The notes beneath the pieces are model-generated. The model saw only the letters and a program-made list of their open reading frames with translations, searched no databases and had not been told where the DNA came from. Positions 31,333 through 38,958 of a stretch of DNA of 64,000 nucleotides are shown in pieces. Every line of letters begins with the position of its first letter. Within the stretch, counting starts at the first letter, position 1. Origin of the DNA: an uncultured Nioella sp. (GTDB lineage Bacteria > Pseudomonadota > Alphaproteobacteria > Rhodobacterales > Rhodobacteraceae). The stretch is taken from positions 124,001 to 188,000 of the forward strand of contig CANLZL010000003.1 in the NCBI GenBank assembly GCA_947495575.1. The letters run 5' to 3'. The translations under genes were made by a program, and so were the position numbers.

Positions 31333-32733
31333 TTAGATTTGACTTGGCAACCAAAGCACAATGGATGGGAATGCCACCAACAAAGCGATCGTAACCGCGT
31401 CTGCGATGAAAAACGGGGTCACGCCCTTGAAGACATCCTGCACCGACAGGTCGTCTCGCACGCCAGCCACAACAAAACAGTTGAGGCCAATTGGCGGTGT
31501 GATCAGGCAGAACTCTGCCATTTTCACCACTAAGATCCCGAACCAAACCGCACACATTGTGCCCGACATTCCGAATGTTGACGCCTCAGCCGCGACATTC
31601 ATTCCGCCGTTCAGCGCCATCACTGCCGGAAAGACAACGGGCAATGTCAGCAACAACATGCCAATTGCATCCATGAACATCCCTAGCACGGCATAGGCCA
31701 GCAAGATGCAGATCAGGATCAACATCGGGGCCATTTCGAGGCTCTGCAGCCAGTCCGAGAATGCGCCCGGCAAGTCAGCAAATCCAAGGAACCGCACATA
31801 TATCAGAACGCCCCAGATGATCGAAAAGATCATGACGCTCAACTTTGCCGTTTCCAGCAGCGCCTCTTTCAAGGCTGGCCAGCGCATTCCACGGTAAAGC
31901 GCCATCAGGAAAACGATAAAGGCCCCGATCGCGCCACCCTCAGTTGGTGTCCCCCACGCGTCGCCCCCAAAGGGATTGTAGACAAAGCAGATGATGATCA
32001 CGACAACGGCCACAATGGGTAATGCCGGCGGAAGCGACTCAAACCGCTCTTTCCAGGTGAACCCGGTGACTCGTGGCCCAAAGCCTTTGATGGTCAGCGC
32101 CATGCCGACGATCAGCAAGGTATAGACAACCGCAGAGAAGACGCCCGGGATAAACCCTGCCAAAAGCAATCGTCCGACATCCTGCTCAACAATTATCGCG
32201 TAGATCACCAAAATGGCCGAGGGCGGGATCAGCGATGCCAAAGTGCCTGCGGCAGCAACAACGCCCGCAGCAAAGCGCTTGTCGTAACCGATCGCCAACA
32301 TCTCAGGGATGGCGATCCTTGCAAATACAGCCGAAGTTGCAACCGAAGCGCCGGAAACCGCTGCAAAGCCTGCCGTCGCAAATACGGTGGACACAGCCAA
32401 CCCGCCTGGCACCCAGGCCATCCATCGTTTCGCAGCTTCAAAAAGCGCCTTGGTCAGGCCTGCGTGATAGGCAAGGTAACCAATCAGGATGAAAGTTGGA
32501 ATGAGGCTTAACGCCTGGCTAGATATCTTCGAATGAGGCACCTGCCCGGCAGTTTTGACCGCGACGGTGAGCGCCCAGACGAATTGATCCGGATCATAGC
32601 CACGCCCGTTCCAGAAATGCCAGACAAGGCCAACAAGACCGGAAAGACCGGCGGCAAACGCCACGCGCATGCCCAAGACGACAAGCAGCAACAGCCCGCC
32701 AGATACCCAAAGGCCTATTGTGATAGAATCCAT
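31333..32733 (-). CDS. dctM: TRAP transporter large permease (DctM)
   Basis: 466 aa, multi-TM; LAIGYDKRFAAGVVAAAGTLASLIPPSAILVIYAIIVEQDVGRLLLAGFIPGV. Confidence 0.92.
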   Translation of the reverse strand: MDSITIGLWVSGGLLLLVVLGMRVAFAAGLSGLVGLVWHFWNGRGYDPDQFVWALTVAVKTAGQVPHSKISSQALSLIPTFILIGYLAYHAGLTKALFEAAKRWMAWVPGGLAVSTVFATAGFAAVSGASVATSAVFARIAIPEMLAIGYDKRFAAGVVAAAGTLASLIPPSAILVIYAIIVEQDVGRLLLAGFIPGVFSAVVYTLLIVGMALTIKGFGPRVTGFTWKERFESLPPALPIVAVVVIIICFVYNPFGGDAWGTPTEGGAIGAFIVFLMALYRGMRWPALKEALLETAKLSVMIFSIIWGVLIYVRFLGFADLPGAFSDWLQSLEMAPMLILICILLAYAVLGMFMDAIGMLLLTLPVVFPAVMALNGGMNVAAEASTFGMSGTMCAVWFGILVVKMAEFCLITPPIGLNCFVVAGVRDDLSVQDVFKGVTPFFIADAVTIALLVAFPSIVLWLPSQI

Positions 32734-32745
32734 TTTCTTCGCCCC

Positions 32746-33393
32746 TCAGTCTTTTGCGCCAGAGACCTGAGCGGCCTCCATCGCGGCTTGAGTGGCGGCA
32801 TCGGCATGAAGAGGCACCCCAACAGGGCGGTCTTCGTTTCGAAGAAACGCGCGTCCATAGATGTACAATTGCAATGCCAGACGAAGCACCAGAACCGAAA
32901 AGGCAATGGGTGCAAGCAACTTGGCAGGCCAAATCGGCAGACGAATATCCATCGAGCTATCCCGGCTCCAAAGCGGCGCTGCAAAATCAAAGCTGCGCTG
33001 AAAATGGGCCCAGGTGCCCCACACCAAAAGCACCATCAAGGTGAAGATGGCCAAGGTGGTAATGAACTCCGCGAGCCATAGCGGTCGTCCCTTCAACGCG
33101 CCCACCAGTAGGTCCATTCGAATGTGACCGCCCTCGCGCTGCGTGAAAGAAATCCCCATGAATGCAATCAAGGGCATCGCCTGTTCGATCCAATCCACAT
33201 ATCCCGGGATCGGCTGATTGATCGCGTTACGACCGCTGACCGATACCACAGCCAGGATCATCAAAGCGAAGACAGCCAGCCCGCTCAGCAGCGCCAGATT
33301 GCGTTCAATCACTACTAGTTTTCGGTCAATACGACTGACTGCACTGTCGTCGGACAGCACAAGTGAACTCCCGGCCATTTTTAGGCCCTCCAA
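32746..33393 (-). CDS. dctQ: TRAP transporter small permease (DctQ)
   Basis: About 4 TMs; SVSGRNAINQPIPGYVDWIEQAMPLIAFMGISFTQREGGHIRMDLL. Confidence 0.88.
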   Translation of the reverse strand: MEGLKMAGSSLVLSDDSAVSRIDRKLVVIERNLALLSGLAVFALMILAVVSVSGRNAINQPIPGYVDWIEQAMPLIAFMGISFTQREGGHIRMDLLVGALKGRPLWLAEFITTLAIFTLMVLLVWGTWAHFQRSFDFAAPLWSRDSSMDIRLPIWPAKLLAPIAFSVLVLRLALQLYIYGRAFLRNEDRPVGVPLHADAATQAAMEAAQVSGAKD

Positions 33394-33453: not shown

Positions 33454-34464
33454 TTACATATCGCCGGAAATCATCCCGGTGACGAAGTCATAGAGTTCTT
33501 GTGCGGGTAGACCGCGGGCGTTGTTTTCCTCGATCCAAGCAGCGGCGGCAGGCGCAGCAGCAGCTTCGCGGAAGGCCGCCAGCTCATCGTCTGAAAACGA
33601 TACTTGGGCAATTCCACGTTCTTCCAATGCGGGGCCCCATGCCTCCATCGTGTTGGAGTTGTAGTTCTCGATATAGTGATCCAGCGCGTCATCAACTGCG
33701 CCAAGCAGCACTTCGCGATGCTCATCCGACAGGAATTCCAATGCATCTGTATTGACCACGACCGGGCAGTTTACGGTTCCGGGGTTGAGGTTGGTGGTCC
33801 ACCAGGCAGCGTTTTCAATCGTACCGAATGACATATGCGCATGCGGTGCGAAGCTAACCGCCGAAACCACGCCACTGTCCATCGCCTGACGAACTTCGGT
33901 GGCCGACATCGAGGTCGGTACTGCACCGATAGTGGCCATCGCCGCTCCGATACCGCCAGTTGCCCGAACCGCCATACCTTCAAAGTCGCCAAGCGTGGCC
34001 GGCGCATCGCCGGTGCCGACAATGTTGTACTGAGGAAGGGGCGACGGCATCAGCAAAGTTGCATTCCAGCGTGCCAGATCGGCCACAACGGCAGGATGCT
34101 CATACAAGGCCTGGCTGATTTCACGCTCTTGCTGGAGCGAGCTTACGCCAAGGAACGGCAGCTCGAGAACGGTGATCGTCGGGTTCTTGTCATAGTGATA
34201 CCCGGCGCAGAACTGCGCCATTTCGAACGCCCCGATGGAAATACCATCTAGGTTTTCGCGGTTACCCGAAAGGCCGCCATAAGAAATGTTCAGGGTAAAA
34301 TCGCCATCTGTCCGTTCGGCCACAAGCTCGGCCAGATGCTCCACATGGGCGGTAAATGCCCGCGGGCTGCCCCAAAGCGAAACGTTCCATTCGACGGCCA
34401 CTGCCTGAGTTGCGACACCAACGGAAAGTGCGGCCACTGCGGTGGCCGTTGCGAAAGTTTTCAT
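33454..34464 (-). CDS. dctP: TRAP transporter solute-binding protein (DctP)
   Basis: Signal peptide MKTFATATAVAALSVGVATQAVAVEW; AEHL..LVAERTDGDFTLNISYGGLSGNRENLDGISIGAFEMAQF. Confidence 0.88.
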   Translation of the reverse strand: MKTFATATAVAALSVGVATQAVAVEWNVSLWGSPRAFTAHVEHLAELVAERTDGDFTLNISYGGLSGNRENLDGISIGAFEMAQFCAGYHYDKNPTITVLELPFLGVSSLQQEREISQALYEHPAVVADLARWNATLLMPSPLPQYNIVGTGDAPATLGDFEGMAVRATGGIGAAMATIGAVPTSMSATEVRQAMDSGVVSAVSFAPHAHMSFGTIENAAWWTTNLNPGTVNCPVVVNTDALEFLSDEHREVLLGAVDDALDHYIENYNSNTMEAWGPALEERGIAQVSFSDDELAAFREAAAAPAAAAWIEENNARGLPAQELYDFVTGMISGDM

Positions 34465-34483: not shown

Positions 34484-34611
34484 CGGATTTCGATACAGGC
34501 CAGACTGACAGATCGCTTGTCACCAAACTATGAAGGAAATTGCCAGAAACTGCGAAGGGGCCATGCGGAAATCCGCAGGGCGTTGATTTGTAGGATTACA
34601 GGTGGATTTCC
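34484..34611. promoter_or_regulatory. Repeated GGAAATCC/GGATTTCC motifs in the dctP/M20 divergent region
   Basis: GCGGA-AA-TCCGC at 34565-34576, GGATTTCC at 34604-34611, CGGATTTCG at 34484-34492. Confidence 0.4.
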
Positions 34612-34655
34612 GGTGGTTATTCTGGCCGAACTGACGTGAAACAATGGTGCTGCAC

Positions 34656-35807
34656 ATGCTCTCCAATTCCGACCTTATTGAACTCACTGCGTTTCGCAAG
34701 GCCTTGCACCGACGGCCGGAAATCTCAGGCGAGGAAGTGGAAACCGCCGCTGCCGTTGTTTCCGCGCTGGATCCCTTACGCCCCACTGAAATCCTGACCG
34801 GGTTGGGCGGTCACGGTGTCGCTGCCACCTTTGACAGCGGCCAACCCGGACCAACCGTCATGTTTCGCGCAGAATTGGATGCGCTTCCTATTCCGGAAGT
34901 GTCCGGCGCACCCTGGACATCAGAAATTGATGGCAAAGGGCATTTATGCGGTCATGACGGGCACATGACCTTTTTGCTGGGGCTTGGGCGCATCCTGTCT
35001 CGCGCACCGGTCGCGCATGGGCGCGTGGTTTTGATGTTCCAGCCAGCCGAAGAAGATGGCAGCGGTGCACGTGCAGTCGTTGCCGATCCTGCCTTTGCCA
35101 CCATAAAACCGGATTGGGCCTTTGCCATTCACAACGAGCCAGGCAAAGCCTTTGGAACTGTTTCGACCCGGGCAGGCCTCATAAACTGCGCCTCTCAAGG
35201 ATTGCGTATTACGCTGTCGGGCAAGACCGCCCACGCCGCAGAACCAGAGGCCGGTCGGTCACCTGCCCGCGCTGTCGCGGAAATCGTACCGGCCATATCC
35301 GACCTCGGTACGGGCGGCGCTTTGGATGAAAATTTTCGGCTGGTAACGGTGACCCATATCCGTGTCGGCGAACCCACCTTTGGTATCTCACCCGGTGAGG
35401 CAGAGGTTTTCGCAACGCTTCGCACCACTCGCGATGATGCGATGGCAGGCCTGAAAGATACCGCCTGTGAGTTGGTGAACTCGATCGCCAAGGTTCACCA
35501 TCTCGAAGTCAAATTTGAGGTATTTGACGAATTCGCTGCCTCCATCAATCATACTGAAGCCGCAGAGGTTGCAATCGCGGCTATGAGCGCCATTGGAATT
35601 GCACATAATGACGAAGGGCTACCCATGCGCGCCTCCGAGGATTTTGGCGTATTTGGCTGGGGCGCCAAAGCTGCGATGCTGTGTCTGGGACCGGGCGAAA
35701 ATTATCCGGCTTTGCACAACCCGGACTATGATTTTCCAGATGACCTGATCCCAATTGGTGTCGCGATATTTGAACGTATCACCAGAGATTTGCTGGGGCG
35801 GGTCTAG
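34656..35807 (+). CDS. M20 family amidohydrolase / N-acyl amino acid (hippurate-type) hydrolase
   Basis: FRKALHRRPEISGEEVETAA, FRAELDALPIPE, HLCGHDGHMTFLLGLGRIL, LMFQPAEEDGSGARAVV, ASEDFGVFGWGAKAAMLCLGPGE. ORF track starts at 34644. Confidence 0.88.
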   Translation: MLSNSDLIELTAFRKALHRRPEISGEEVETAAAVVSALDPLRPTEILTGLGGHGVAATFDSGQPGPTVMFRAELDALPIPEVSGAPWTSEIDGKGHLCGHDGHMTFLLGLGRILSRAPVAHGRVVLMFQPAEEDGSGARAVVADPAFATIKPDWAFAIHNEPGKAFGTVSTRAGLINCASQGLRITLSGKTAHAAEPEAGRSPARAVAEIVPAISDLGTGGALDENFRLVTVTHIRVGEPTFGISPGEAEVFATLRTTRDDAMAGLKDTACELVNSIAKVHHLEVKFEVFDEFAASINHTEAAEVAIAAMSAIGIAHNDEGLPMRASEDFGVFGWGAKAAMLCLGPGENYPALHNPDYDFPDDLIPIGVAIFERITRDLLGRV

Positions 35808-35809
35808 CT

Positions 35810-37168
35810 TCACTCAGCCGCCAATACGGCGTCTTTGTCCAAGCCCAGTTTGACGATTTTTTCGTTCAGAGTACGCCTGCCGATGCCAAGCGCCTCAGCG
35901 ACCGCATCCATGCGTCCTTCATGCGCCCGAATGGCCTTGGCAATCAGTTCACGTTCAAAAACCGCGACCGCTTCTCGCAGTGTGTCGGGAACATCTTCTG
36001 CCGGTGCGTCGGTGCGCAACGCTTGCGAAACCGAGCCGCCGCCACGTCTGGCCTGCAAGACCCGCCGTTCGGCCACCGTACGCAATTCGCGAACATTGCC
36101 GGGCCAGTCATGTGCCAGCAATGCGGTAACATCTTCGTGCGACATGTCCGGCAAGGACACTTCATAAACTCGCGCATATTCGGCTGTGAAATAGGTGAAA
36201 AGCATTGACAAATCATCCCTACGCGCGCGCAGCGACGGCAGATCAATGACCATTGTGTTGATACGATACAGAAGGTCTTGGCGAAGGCGGCCTTCGGCAA
36301 CGGCCGCGCCCGGGTCTTCATTTGTGGCAGACAGGATCCTGACATCGACGCGAACAGGTTTATCTGCTCCAAGAGGAGTGACCTGCCCATCCTCGATCAC
36401 GCGCAATAGCTTTGCCTGAACCGGCAGGGGGCAGGTGCAAACCTCGTCCAGGAACACAGTCCCTCCATCCGCGGAGACAAGCGCGCCAGCGCTCTTCCCC
36501 TTTATGCCAAACATCTCAATTTCAAACCGATCCTCGGGCAAGGCAGCACAATTCAAGGCCATGAACGGGGCAGAGGCGCGCGCGCCCAGATCATGCAGGG
36601 CTCGGGCCACCAGTTCTTTTCCTGTTCCGGTCTCACCTTGTAGCAAGATGGAGACATCGGTATCGGCCAGATCCACAACATCCTTACGCAGTTGCTGAAT
36701 TGCAGGGGTTTGCCCCACCAAGACCCGGTCAAGGCCTGACAGCCGAGCAAGTCGATCCTTCAGCCGTTCGGCGTCTTGTGCCATGCGGTGCTGACGGGCA
36801 GCATGGTCCAATATGCGCAGCAACCGGCGCGGGTCATATGGTTTTTCAACAAAGCTATACGCGCCGTTCTGAATGGCCTGCACCGCTGTCGGAATGTCTC
36901 CGTGGGCTGAGATCAGAACAAGCGGCGGGGCGGACTGAGGGTCCAATTCCGATAGCAGGTCCAGCCCGCTCATACCCGGCATCCTGACATCGGAAAGGAT
37001 TACGTCAGGCTGAATGTCGGCGAGCAGATCAATGACGCCTGTTGCCCGCGGCAATGCATCAGCACGCCAACCAGCTGCCTCCAACAAATCCACCAGCGAC
37101 GCCCGCATGGATTTATCGTCATCGACGATCAAAACCGAAAAGGCCTGTTGGATCGGAGGGCTTGTCAT
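35810..37168 (-). CDS. dctD: DctD-like response regulator with AAA+ domain, lacking a recognisable GAFTGA loop
   Basis: Receiver domain (VLIVDDDKSMRASLVDLLE, DVILSDVRMPGMSGLDLL); Walker A GETGTGKELVARALHD; FLDEV Walker B; Fis-type HTH (VAEALGIGRRTLNEKIVKLGL). The region between EMFG and DGGTVFLDEV is IKGKSAGALVSA. Confidence 0.88.
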   Translation of the reverse strand: MTSPPIQQAFSVLIVDDDKSMRASLVDLLEAAGWRADALPRATGVIDLLADIQPDVILSDVRMPGMSGLDLLSELDPQSAPPLVLISAHGDIPTAVQAIQNGAYSFVEKPYDPRRLLRILDHAARQHRMAQDAERLKDRLARLSGLDRVLVGQTPAIQQLRKDVVDLADTDVSILLQGETGTGKELVARALHDLGARASAPFMALNCAALPEDRFEIEMFGIKGKSAGALVSADGGTVFLDEVCTCPLPVQAKLLRVIEDGQVTPLGADKPVRVDVRILSATNEDPGAAVAEGRLRQDLLYRINTMVIDLPSLRARRDDLSMLFTYFTAEYARVYEVSLPDMSHEDVTALLAHDWPGNVRELRTVAERRVLQARRGGGSVSQALRTDAPAEDVPDTLREAVAVFERELIAKAIRAHEGRMDAVAEALGIGRRTLNEKIVKLGLDKDAVLAAE

Positions 37169-38889
37169 TCTGCTGCCTCGCTTTGGGCATCTGCCAATGG
37201 AATCTCAACACGAAAAACCGCCCCGCCCCCTGCGCGGTTATGGGCCTGCATCGTGCCTTGATGCTCTTTCACGATGCCCGCCGAAATCGCCAAACCTAAC
37301 CCCATGCCATGACCAGATTCACGGCTGGTCACGAAAGGTTCTTGTAGGTCAGTGAGGGTGGCCTCGCCCAAACCATGTCCGCGATCGGCAACTTCAAACC
37401 ACGCCATGTCCGAGGTCGCCTGGACACGCACTGTCAGGTCACGGCCGCCGTGATCTTCCATTGCATCCACTGCGTTCCTGAGAAGGTTGATCATAACTTG
37501 CTCGATCCGCAGTTTGTTGCCCTGGATAAAAATTGGATGGTCTGCCATTTCATTATGAACAGTAATTTCCGCGACCTGAAAATTGGCTGCCATTAAACCC
37601 AACGCTTCGGACATCGCTTTACGCAATTCAACCGGTTCCATTTTGTCTTCACCTGGGTTGGAGAAGAACTTGAGCTGTCGGGTGATCGCTTCCATCCGAT
37701 CAACTAGCCCGGTCAAACGGGACACAACCTTCACTCCCCCCCCCATCTCAGCGGCCGCCAAGTGATTTCGCATTGCCGTAATGGGCTGACCAAGCTCATG
37801 GGTGACCGAGGCTGAGATTTCGCCCAACGCCGCCAGCCGGCTGGCCCGGGCCAATTCATCGCGGGTGCGATCAAGGCGTCGTTCTGCGGTTTTCCTGTCC
37901 TCGATCTCAACTGCCAGCCGTTCATTTGCGCGGCGCAATTCTGCTTCTTCGGCTTCCGACCGCCTAAGTGCGGCGCGGATCAGCGCAGTACGTCGCATCA
38001 GGACGATCAACAACAACCCACCAAAGACGGCGACCGCGATCACAGTGGCAAGCCAGCTGCGCGTGACAACCGGCGTTTCACTGGCAAAGTAATGCAGGCG
38101 CCAACCATGCGGCAAATCCCCGGTTTCAAGGTGAATGACCTCTTGGCCGCCAATCGTGGCCCGACGTTCACCCCGGTCTTGCCAATTCAGCTGGCTCAAG
38201 TCCTGTCCGCTGAACTGCCGGGCCTGGGCAATGTCTTCGCGTTGTTGGTCGCTGAGTGGGCCAAGAGTTCGATACCGCCAGCTTGGGTCAGAGGCCAGCA
38301 ACACAACACCATCGGCGTTCACCAACAAGACTTGCTCACCGCCGTCGCGCCAGTTGCCTTCAAGCTCAGTCAAATCGATCTTGATGGCAATGACGCCCAA
38401 CCTTTCACCAAGGTCCGACATCACTCCGTCGGCAATGAAATAGCCGGGCAACCCCGTGGTCGCTCCGATCCCGTAGAACCGGCCCTGCTGGCCATCCATG
38501 GCCTCCTGAAAATACGGACGGAACCCGTAATTCTGACCTACAAAACTCCGCCCCGTACCGGCGTTGGACGCTGAAATCGTAAGTCCAGTGTCGTCCATCA
38601 GATAGATTGCGTCCAGCCCAGCTTGGTCTGTGAACGTCGCCAGGCGATTATCAAGAAGCGCCGTTTCACCACCATGGGCCGTGTCTATGACAAACGGGTC
38701 ACGGGACAAAACGAAGGTGAGGTGGGAAAACCGATTTAGCTGCGCGACGACGGTACTTCTATAGAGGGACAGCCGCCCTTCGGCCCGTGTCATTTCATCG
38801 GACCAGAAATACCGGTAAGAGGCGAAATAGGCACCCATTGCCATGGCAAGAAACAGCGCAAGCCCTGCGATCCATCGCCATAGGTTCAT
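37165..38889 (-). CDS. dctB: DctB-like C4-dicarboxylate-type sensor histidine kinase
   Basis: Double Cache-type sensor region (SFVGQNYGFRPYFQEAMDGQQGRFYGIGATTGLPGYFIA), HisKA LGEISASVTHELGQPITAMRNHL, HATPase VMINLLRNAVDAMEDHGG, GHGMGLGLAIS. Start MNLWRWIAG inferred. Confidence 0.88.
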   Translation of the reverse strand: MNLWRWIAGLALFLAMAMGAYFASYRYFWSDEMTRAEGRLSLYRSTVVAQLNRFSHLTFVLSRDPFVIDTAHGGETALLDNRLATFTDQAGLDAIYLMDDTGLTISASNAGTGRSFVGQNYGFRPYFQEAMDGQQGRFYGIGATTGLPGYFIADGVMSDLGERLGVIAIKIDLTELEGNWRDGGEQVLLVNADGVVLLASDPSWRYRTLGPLSDQQREDIAQARQFSGQDLSQLNWQDRGERRATIGGQEVIHLETGDLPHGWRLHYFASETPVVTRSWLATVIAVAVFGGLLLIVLMRRTALIRAALRRSEAEEAELRRANERLAVEIEDRKTAERRLDRTRDELARASRLAALGEISASVTHELGQPITAMRNHLAAAEMGGGVKVVSRLTGLVDRMEAITRQLKFFSNPGEDKMEPVELRKAMSEALGLMAANFQVAEITVHNEMADHPIFIQGNKLRIEQVMINLLRNAVDAMEDHGGRDLTVRVQATSDMAWFEVADRGHGLGEATLTDLQEPFVTSRESGHGMGLGLAISAGIVKEHQGTMQAHNRAGGGAVFRVEIPLADAQSEAAE

Positions 38890-38958
38890 TTCGTCGCCTC
38901 CCAACACCGAAAACCCGGTGCTTCAAAGGCTTAGCCAAATCGGGAAGAATTGCAAATT

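Follow-up and report, generated by a model that had tools for sequence, protein, structure and literature searches.

A clade of DctD-like regulators that lacks the sigma-54 contact loop

The response regulator DctD from Rhizobium (or S.) meliloti is a sigma-54 activator of dctA. It binds the site TGTGCGgaaatCCGCACA (PMC11077940), and dctA has tandem DctD sites whose affinities differ 50-100 fold (PMC11077940 and its references). Other members of the NtrC family lack an intact GAFTGA, the motif in the L1 loop that contacts sigma-54. NtrC from R. capsulatus has a deletion in L1 and works with the housekeeping RNA polymerase; both phosphorylation and ATP binding are needed (as cited in PMC10274813). 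NtrC from Caulobacter crescentus has a smaller deletion of eight residues, which spans GAFTGA, and it acts at sigma-70 promoters as both an activator and a repressor (PMC10274813). HupR, TyrR, and DhaR have defective GAFTGA motifs and are reported to be sigma-70 dependent (PMC3162934).

We analyzed a DctD-like regulator from an uncultured Nioella sp.; the window is the whole stretch of DNA that was analyzed, with a length of 64,000 nucleotides. The regulator resembles DctD in its domain order, in the neighboring DctB-like kinase, in having a dicarboxylate-type transporter as its proposed target, and in its operator. Unlike DctD, it has no GAFTGA; there is also no rpoN in its host and no -24/-12 element at its target promoter. 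Like the NtrC of R. capsulatus, it is an alphaproteobacterial member of the NtrC family with an L1 deletion, and like the NtrC of Caulobacter, it has lost eight residues including GAFTGA. However, the R. capsulatus protein is a nitrogen regulator, not a DctD, and the Caulobacter protein belongs to another subfamily with another regulon, in a bacterium that keeps rpoN (our control search was positive). HupR, TyrR, DhaR, and VpsR are also NtrC-family proteins with a defective GAFTGA, but they have other sensory inputs and targets and belong to other subfamilies. GAFTGA-less regulators of the NtrC family are already known as a kind (the NtrC proteins of R. capsulatus and Caulobacter, HupR, and TyrR). 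The new aspects are its occurrence in the DctD branch and throughout a clade there, a host without rpoN, and an operator that lies beside a -10-type promoter.

The regulator and its shortened L1 loop

The regulator's domains were identified by a profile search as Response_reg, Sigma54_activat, AAA_lid_14, and HTH_8 (Table 1). The receiver matches that of S. meliloti DctD (1l5y, E = 8e-24), and the AAA+ domain (PF00158, E = 4e-49) has the Walker A and B motifs, the arginine fingers, and sensor II. The first-pass annotation had described the receiver, both Walker motifs, and the Fis-type HTH as intact, and we found all of them. It had also placed a shortened L1 without GAFTGA at 36455-36520. Our alignment agrees: L1 has 8 fewer residues than in GAFTGA-bearing relatives, GAFTGA is missing, and the remaining sequence, EMFGIKGKSAGALVSADGG, lies within that span. 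The protein thus has an L1 deletion in an ATPase that is otherwise intact.

An AlphaFold model, whose alignment combined the window with related loci, had a mean pLDDT of 87.5 overall and high confidence in the AAA+ core. At the position of L1, the model has just a very short hairpin. The model's fold matches include Brucella NtrX and NtrC1, and its AAA+ part is within 2 Å of PspF. The solved structures that are nearest by fold include VpsR and Brucella NtrX.

Table 1. Features of the regulator locus, in window coordinates
Feature	Position	Strand	Basis
dctM, TRAP large permease	31333..32733	-	Pfam PF06808
dctQ, TRAP small permease	32746..33393	-	Pfam PF04290
dctP, TRAP solute-binding protein, proposed target	33454..34464	-	Pfam PF03480
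Position of the clade's -10-like hexamer; the window reads CAGTCT, a weak match (A2 and T6 only)	34502..34507	-	peak over 25 dereplicated loci
Second element GCAATTTCCTTCAT, interpreted as a degenerate operator, centered 33 bp from the first	34530..34543	-	7/14 match
Strong operator TGCGGATTTCCGCA, DctD-type palindrome, center 106 bp before the dctP ATG	34564..34577	-	conserved in 30 dctP loci
M20 amidohydrolase, between regulator and operator	34644..35807	+	Pfam PF01546
DctD-like response regulator (REC-AAA+-Fis HTH), 452 aa, without GAFTGA	35810..37168	-	ORF and Pfam
Fis-type HTH, residues 401-440	35849..35968	-	Pfam PF02954
Walker B GGTVFLDE, residues 235-242	36443..36466	-	sequence motif
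Shortened L1 region EMFGIKGKSAGALVSADGG, residues 218-236	36461..36517	-	alignments; AlphaFold short hairpin
Walker A GETGTGKE, residues 178-185	36614..36637	-	sequence motif
Receiver domain, residues 12-120, phosphoacceptor D60	36809..37135	-	Pfam PF00072
Partner histidine kinase, DctB-like (dCache_1, HisKA, HATPase_c)	37165..38907	-	ORF and Pfam

Distribution of the loop loss and of rpoN

A scan of GTDB genomes yielded 41 orthologues (51-70% identity; the next relatives were at 44% or below), and a separate search for relatives added six more. GAFTGA is missing from all 47, while the outgroup has it. In a phylogenetic tree, the GAFTGA-less orthologues are monophyletic (support 100/99) and separate from a group that holds GAFTGA-bearing proteins; for DctD from S. 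meliloti, the comparison covered the receiver. The first-pass annotation had asked if the loss is clade-wide among the DctD homologs of Rhodobacteraceae; our 47 orthologues all have it and make up a single clade.

Most of the orthologues share the same 8-residue gap. Since this gap recurs in dozens of independent assemblies, a sequencing error or frameshift as the cause of the missing loop is ruled out. Nine orthologues have lost further residues from the loop (L067, L071, L075, L076, L077, L079, L080, L081, and L085), and rpoN is missing from every genome of this subclade.

Within the clade, conservation is lowest in the L1 region (35% identity), the Walker B motif is 98% identical, and the Fis-type HTH has a mean pairwise identity of 80%. 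We checked 13 residues for phosphorylation of the receiver, ATPase activity, and the HTH, and all of them are invariant in 48/48 clade sequences. These include D17, D60, S87, and K109 in the receiver and K184, D241, E242, R296, R302, and R360 in the ATPase. Judging from these comparisons, the pattern is one of selective loss of a single loop while the rest of the protein is maintained.

To find rpoN, we used Pfam models for the DNA-binding part and the core-binding part of sigma-54 (PF04552 and PF04963), which were positive in the control genomes (E. coli, B. subtilis, Caulobacter, and a Bacteroides). Neither model had any match in the regulator's own genome (3.68 Mb in 26 contigs, 100% complete), so the host does not encode RpoN. 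rpoN was also not found in a congener's genome. Among the 41 genomes with orthologues from the GTDB scan, 11 have rpoN above the cut-off, which implies that loss of rpoN is not required for loss of the loop. Loop-less members in genomes with rpoN were also seen in G005, G009, G016, and G018. The idea that the loop was lost because rpoN was lost is therefore unsupported.

These distributions bear on whether the regulator is a decaying relic, left over after rpoN was lost and with no remaining role in activating transcription. The host does lack rpoN, and the loop shrinks further in a subclade whose genomes all lack it. But decay does not fit with the invariant phosphorylation, ATPase, and HTH residues, with the loop-less members in genomes that retain rpoN, with the conserved operator and operon, or with the fitness phenotype of mutants in R. 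pomeroyi (see below). We consider a relic to be highly improbable.

More broadly, 62 of 200 Rhodobacteraceae genera have a clear rpoN (weak matches near the cut-off were left out of this count). A DNA pattern for FGHExGAFTGA matched G[AS]FTGA loops in 37 genomes, each of them with rpoN, whereas the 138 genomes without rpoN had no such match (P = 5e-24, Fisher's exact test, with genomes treated as unrelated). Up to two mismatches are tolerated by the pattern, which can overlook variants; one example is NAFTGA, which is reported from Paracoccus denitrificans and R. pomeroyi (PMC3162934). R. pomeroyi is also reported to possess a sigma-54 activator. Proteins of the loop-less kind are annotated as "sigma-54 dependent" in public genomes (such as R. 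pomeroyi and Leisingera). The NCBI name is "sigma-54 dependent transcriptional regulator", yet roughly two in three of the Rhodobacteraceae genera that we sampled lack sigma-54.

We also noted other regulators in the host's genome. Its sole enhancer-binding protein with a near-complete loop (G000:C4:185920-186417, L001) has GAFPGA. GAFPGA loops are found in genomes with rpoN as well as in genomes without it, and this Thr to Pro form is a common deviation that was noted earlier (PMC3162934). A second GAFTGA-less regulator (G000:C2:380720-381175, L004) is widespread in Rhodobacteraceae (relatives are at L020, L022-L028, and L030-L035). Its Walker B motif is LVLED instead of LFLDE, which suggests that its ATPase may be altered.

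Operator and promoter of dctP

The kinase is directly upstream of the regulator in 41/41 loci, and in 29/41, dctP, dctQ, and dctM follow downstream on the same strand. The M20 amidohydrolase, on the opposite strand, separates the regulator from the dctP operator in this genome only, among those compared; we found no homolog of it in the 41 related loci.

Upstream of dctP, the core TGCGGANNTCCGCA is present in 30/30 sequences (29 loci and the window). Ten of its twelve fixed positions are invariant, and the other two vary in one or two sequences. Both this core and the window's palindrome TGCGGATTTCCGCA match the DctD site of R. meliloti. Alternatively, the palindrome might end the transcript of the kinase-regulator operon, as a terminator or 3' mRNA hairpin. 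Its position in most loci is 10-25 bp past the regulator's stop codon, and it could form a G+C-rich hairpin. But where other DNA separates the regulator from dctP (the window, L058, and L076), the distance from the palindrome to dctP is still about 105-115 bp. Also, there is no T run beside it, no terminator was predicted in the window, and it matches a known DctD site. Since the palindrome keeps its place relative to dctP rather than to the end of the regulator, we rejected a terminator, which we consider very unlikely, and we treat the palindrome as an operator.

In the same 30 sequences, a second conserved element, GCNNTTTTCTTCAT, lies downstream of the palindrome at nearly fixed spacing. 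When we compared this element to the operator at all offsets, similarity peaked at 33 bp (mean of 8.5/14 versus 4.0 overall). This is why we read it as a degenerate, putative second operator. The window's element is the weakest match among the loci, and the element at L016, GCGGATTTCCTCAT, is nearly a full site. By sequence, then, these promoters have the DctD arrangement of tandem unequal sites: TGCGGANNTCCGCA plus a probable degenerate copy 33 bp away.

The host's genome contains just one other exact operator (G000:C1:294172-294185, L139). It precedes ORFs for a tautomerase-like protein, an SMP-30-like protein, and an ABC-type binding protein, and it has no clear second element at 33 bp.

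Which RNA polymerase uses the dctP promoter? A convincing -24/-12 element was found in none of the 30 ingroup dctP promoters, including those from genomes with rpoN. The first-pass annotation had likewise seen none upstream of dctP, and our scan of the window gave the same result. Most of the GAFTGA-bearing relatives from Pseudomonas have GCGGATTTCCGC sites after the regulator, several of them paired 32-33 bp apart. These are followed by TGGCACAGCTCCTGCT or a near copy of it, which is a textbook -24/-12. This positive control shows that our scan detects a sigma-54 promoter where one is present.

These results also make it hard to argue that the regulator still uses sigma-54, via another surface or because we missed rpoN. 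Some members of the clade are in genomes with rpoN, and a DNA-binding-domain mutant of the GAFTGA-less NtrC from Caulobacter raises some sigma-54-dependent transcripts (PMC12421884). However, the dctP promoters lack -24/-12 elements even in genomes with rpoN, two sigma-54 models found nothing in a complete genome, and the congener was negative as well. We give this explanation almost no credence.

Instead, the dctP promoters share a -10-like hexamer, NATACT, which peaks at +63.5 from the center of the palindrome (25 dereplicated loci, 10 of them within one base). In shuffled sequences the mean maximum was 3.6, and 0/1000 shuffles reached 10, with loci treated as unrelated. R. pomeroyi, which is outside the 25-locus set, has GATACT at this position (counted by hand). 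The -35 region is poor. A -10-like hexamer thus recurs at a fixed distance across loci and may belong to a sigma-70-type promoter, although the hexamer is weak in the window itself, where a scan for consensus sigma-70 promoters found nothing. If transcription does depend on this hexamer, it would start near +75, which would place the strong site at around -75 and the weak one at around -42. The binding sites of R. capsulatus NtrC are farther away, at over 100 bp upstream.

Mutant fitness and mode of action

Transposon pools of R. pomeroyi DSS-3 give an indication of the regulator's role. Mutants in SPOA0237 (dctD-2), SPOA0238 (dctP), and SPOA0240 (dctM) had similarly negative fitness in three co-cultures, with differences of -0.27/-0.25/-0.22, -0.18/-0.20/-0.18, and -0.14 each (PMC10041152). 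The orthologue on the megaplasmid of R. pomeroyi (L149, 9983-11323) has the same gene order and lacks GAFTGA (FGIAGQSEGRLAKASGG). If SPOA0237 is this gene, as presumed from gene order only, then the shared sign of the regulator, dctP, and dctM mutants favors activation over repression, with the caveat of possible polar effects on dctP from insertions in the regulator. This suggests that the regulator activates dctP.

A repressor would instead bind next to the -35 region and block RNA polymerase. The second element does abut the presumed -35 region, and the NtrC of Caulobacter, which is also GAFTGA-less, represses some genes (PMC10274813). But the regulator mutants of R. pomeroyi resemble the dctP and dctM mutants, rather than being opposite to them, and a poor -35 suits an activated promoter. 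We consider repression to be unlikely.

The contact loop is gone and rpoN is absent, but the regulator and its DNA sites are conserved, so the ordinary RNA polymerase is the regulator's most likely partner. We think it likely that it is a DctB/DctD-type activator of dctPQM that uses a non-sigma-54 holoenzyme, most probably the one with housekeeping sigma-70. Independent observations support the suggestion in the first-pass annotation that the pair acts at a sigma-70-type promoter: the lack of rpoN, the clade-wide loss of the loop with the ATPase residues retained, the lack of -24/-12 elements, and the -10-like hexamer. Direct dependence on sigma-70 is inferred.

We propose that the kinase would phosphorylate D60 of the regulator, whose dimers would then occupy two sites, a strong one at about -75 and a weak one at about -42 that adjoins the -35 region. 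The bound regulator would assist the non-sigma-54 holoenzyme, most likely with sigma-70, at a promoter whose -35 is poor. The motor residues are invariant, so oligomerization probably still requires that ATP be bound or hydrolyzed.

More tentatively, the clade might have switched holoenzymes while keeping its operator. The ancestral tandem enhancer would now belong to a sigma-70 promoter, with its sites at about -75 and -42, and a loop-less AAA+ ring would still use ATP to activate the housekeeping polymerase, at a rigid distance as in class II activation. The loop would have been lost first, and rpoN would then have been lost repeatedly within the family. This fuller scenario is possible but doubtful.

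Regardless, the same DctD-type tandem operator is found with a GAFTGA protein and a -24/-12 promoter in Pseudomonas and with a loop-less protein and a -10-type promoter here. This matched pair makes it possible to test what the conserved ATPase does once contact with sigma-54 is lost.

Some loci have the kinase-regulator pair without a match to the window's dctP, dctQ, or dctM (L063, L068-L073, L078, L082-L084, and L086). Several of these retain the operator and the second element after the regulator, which suggests that the pair may control other transporters at these loci.
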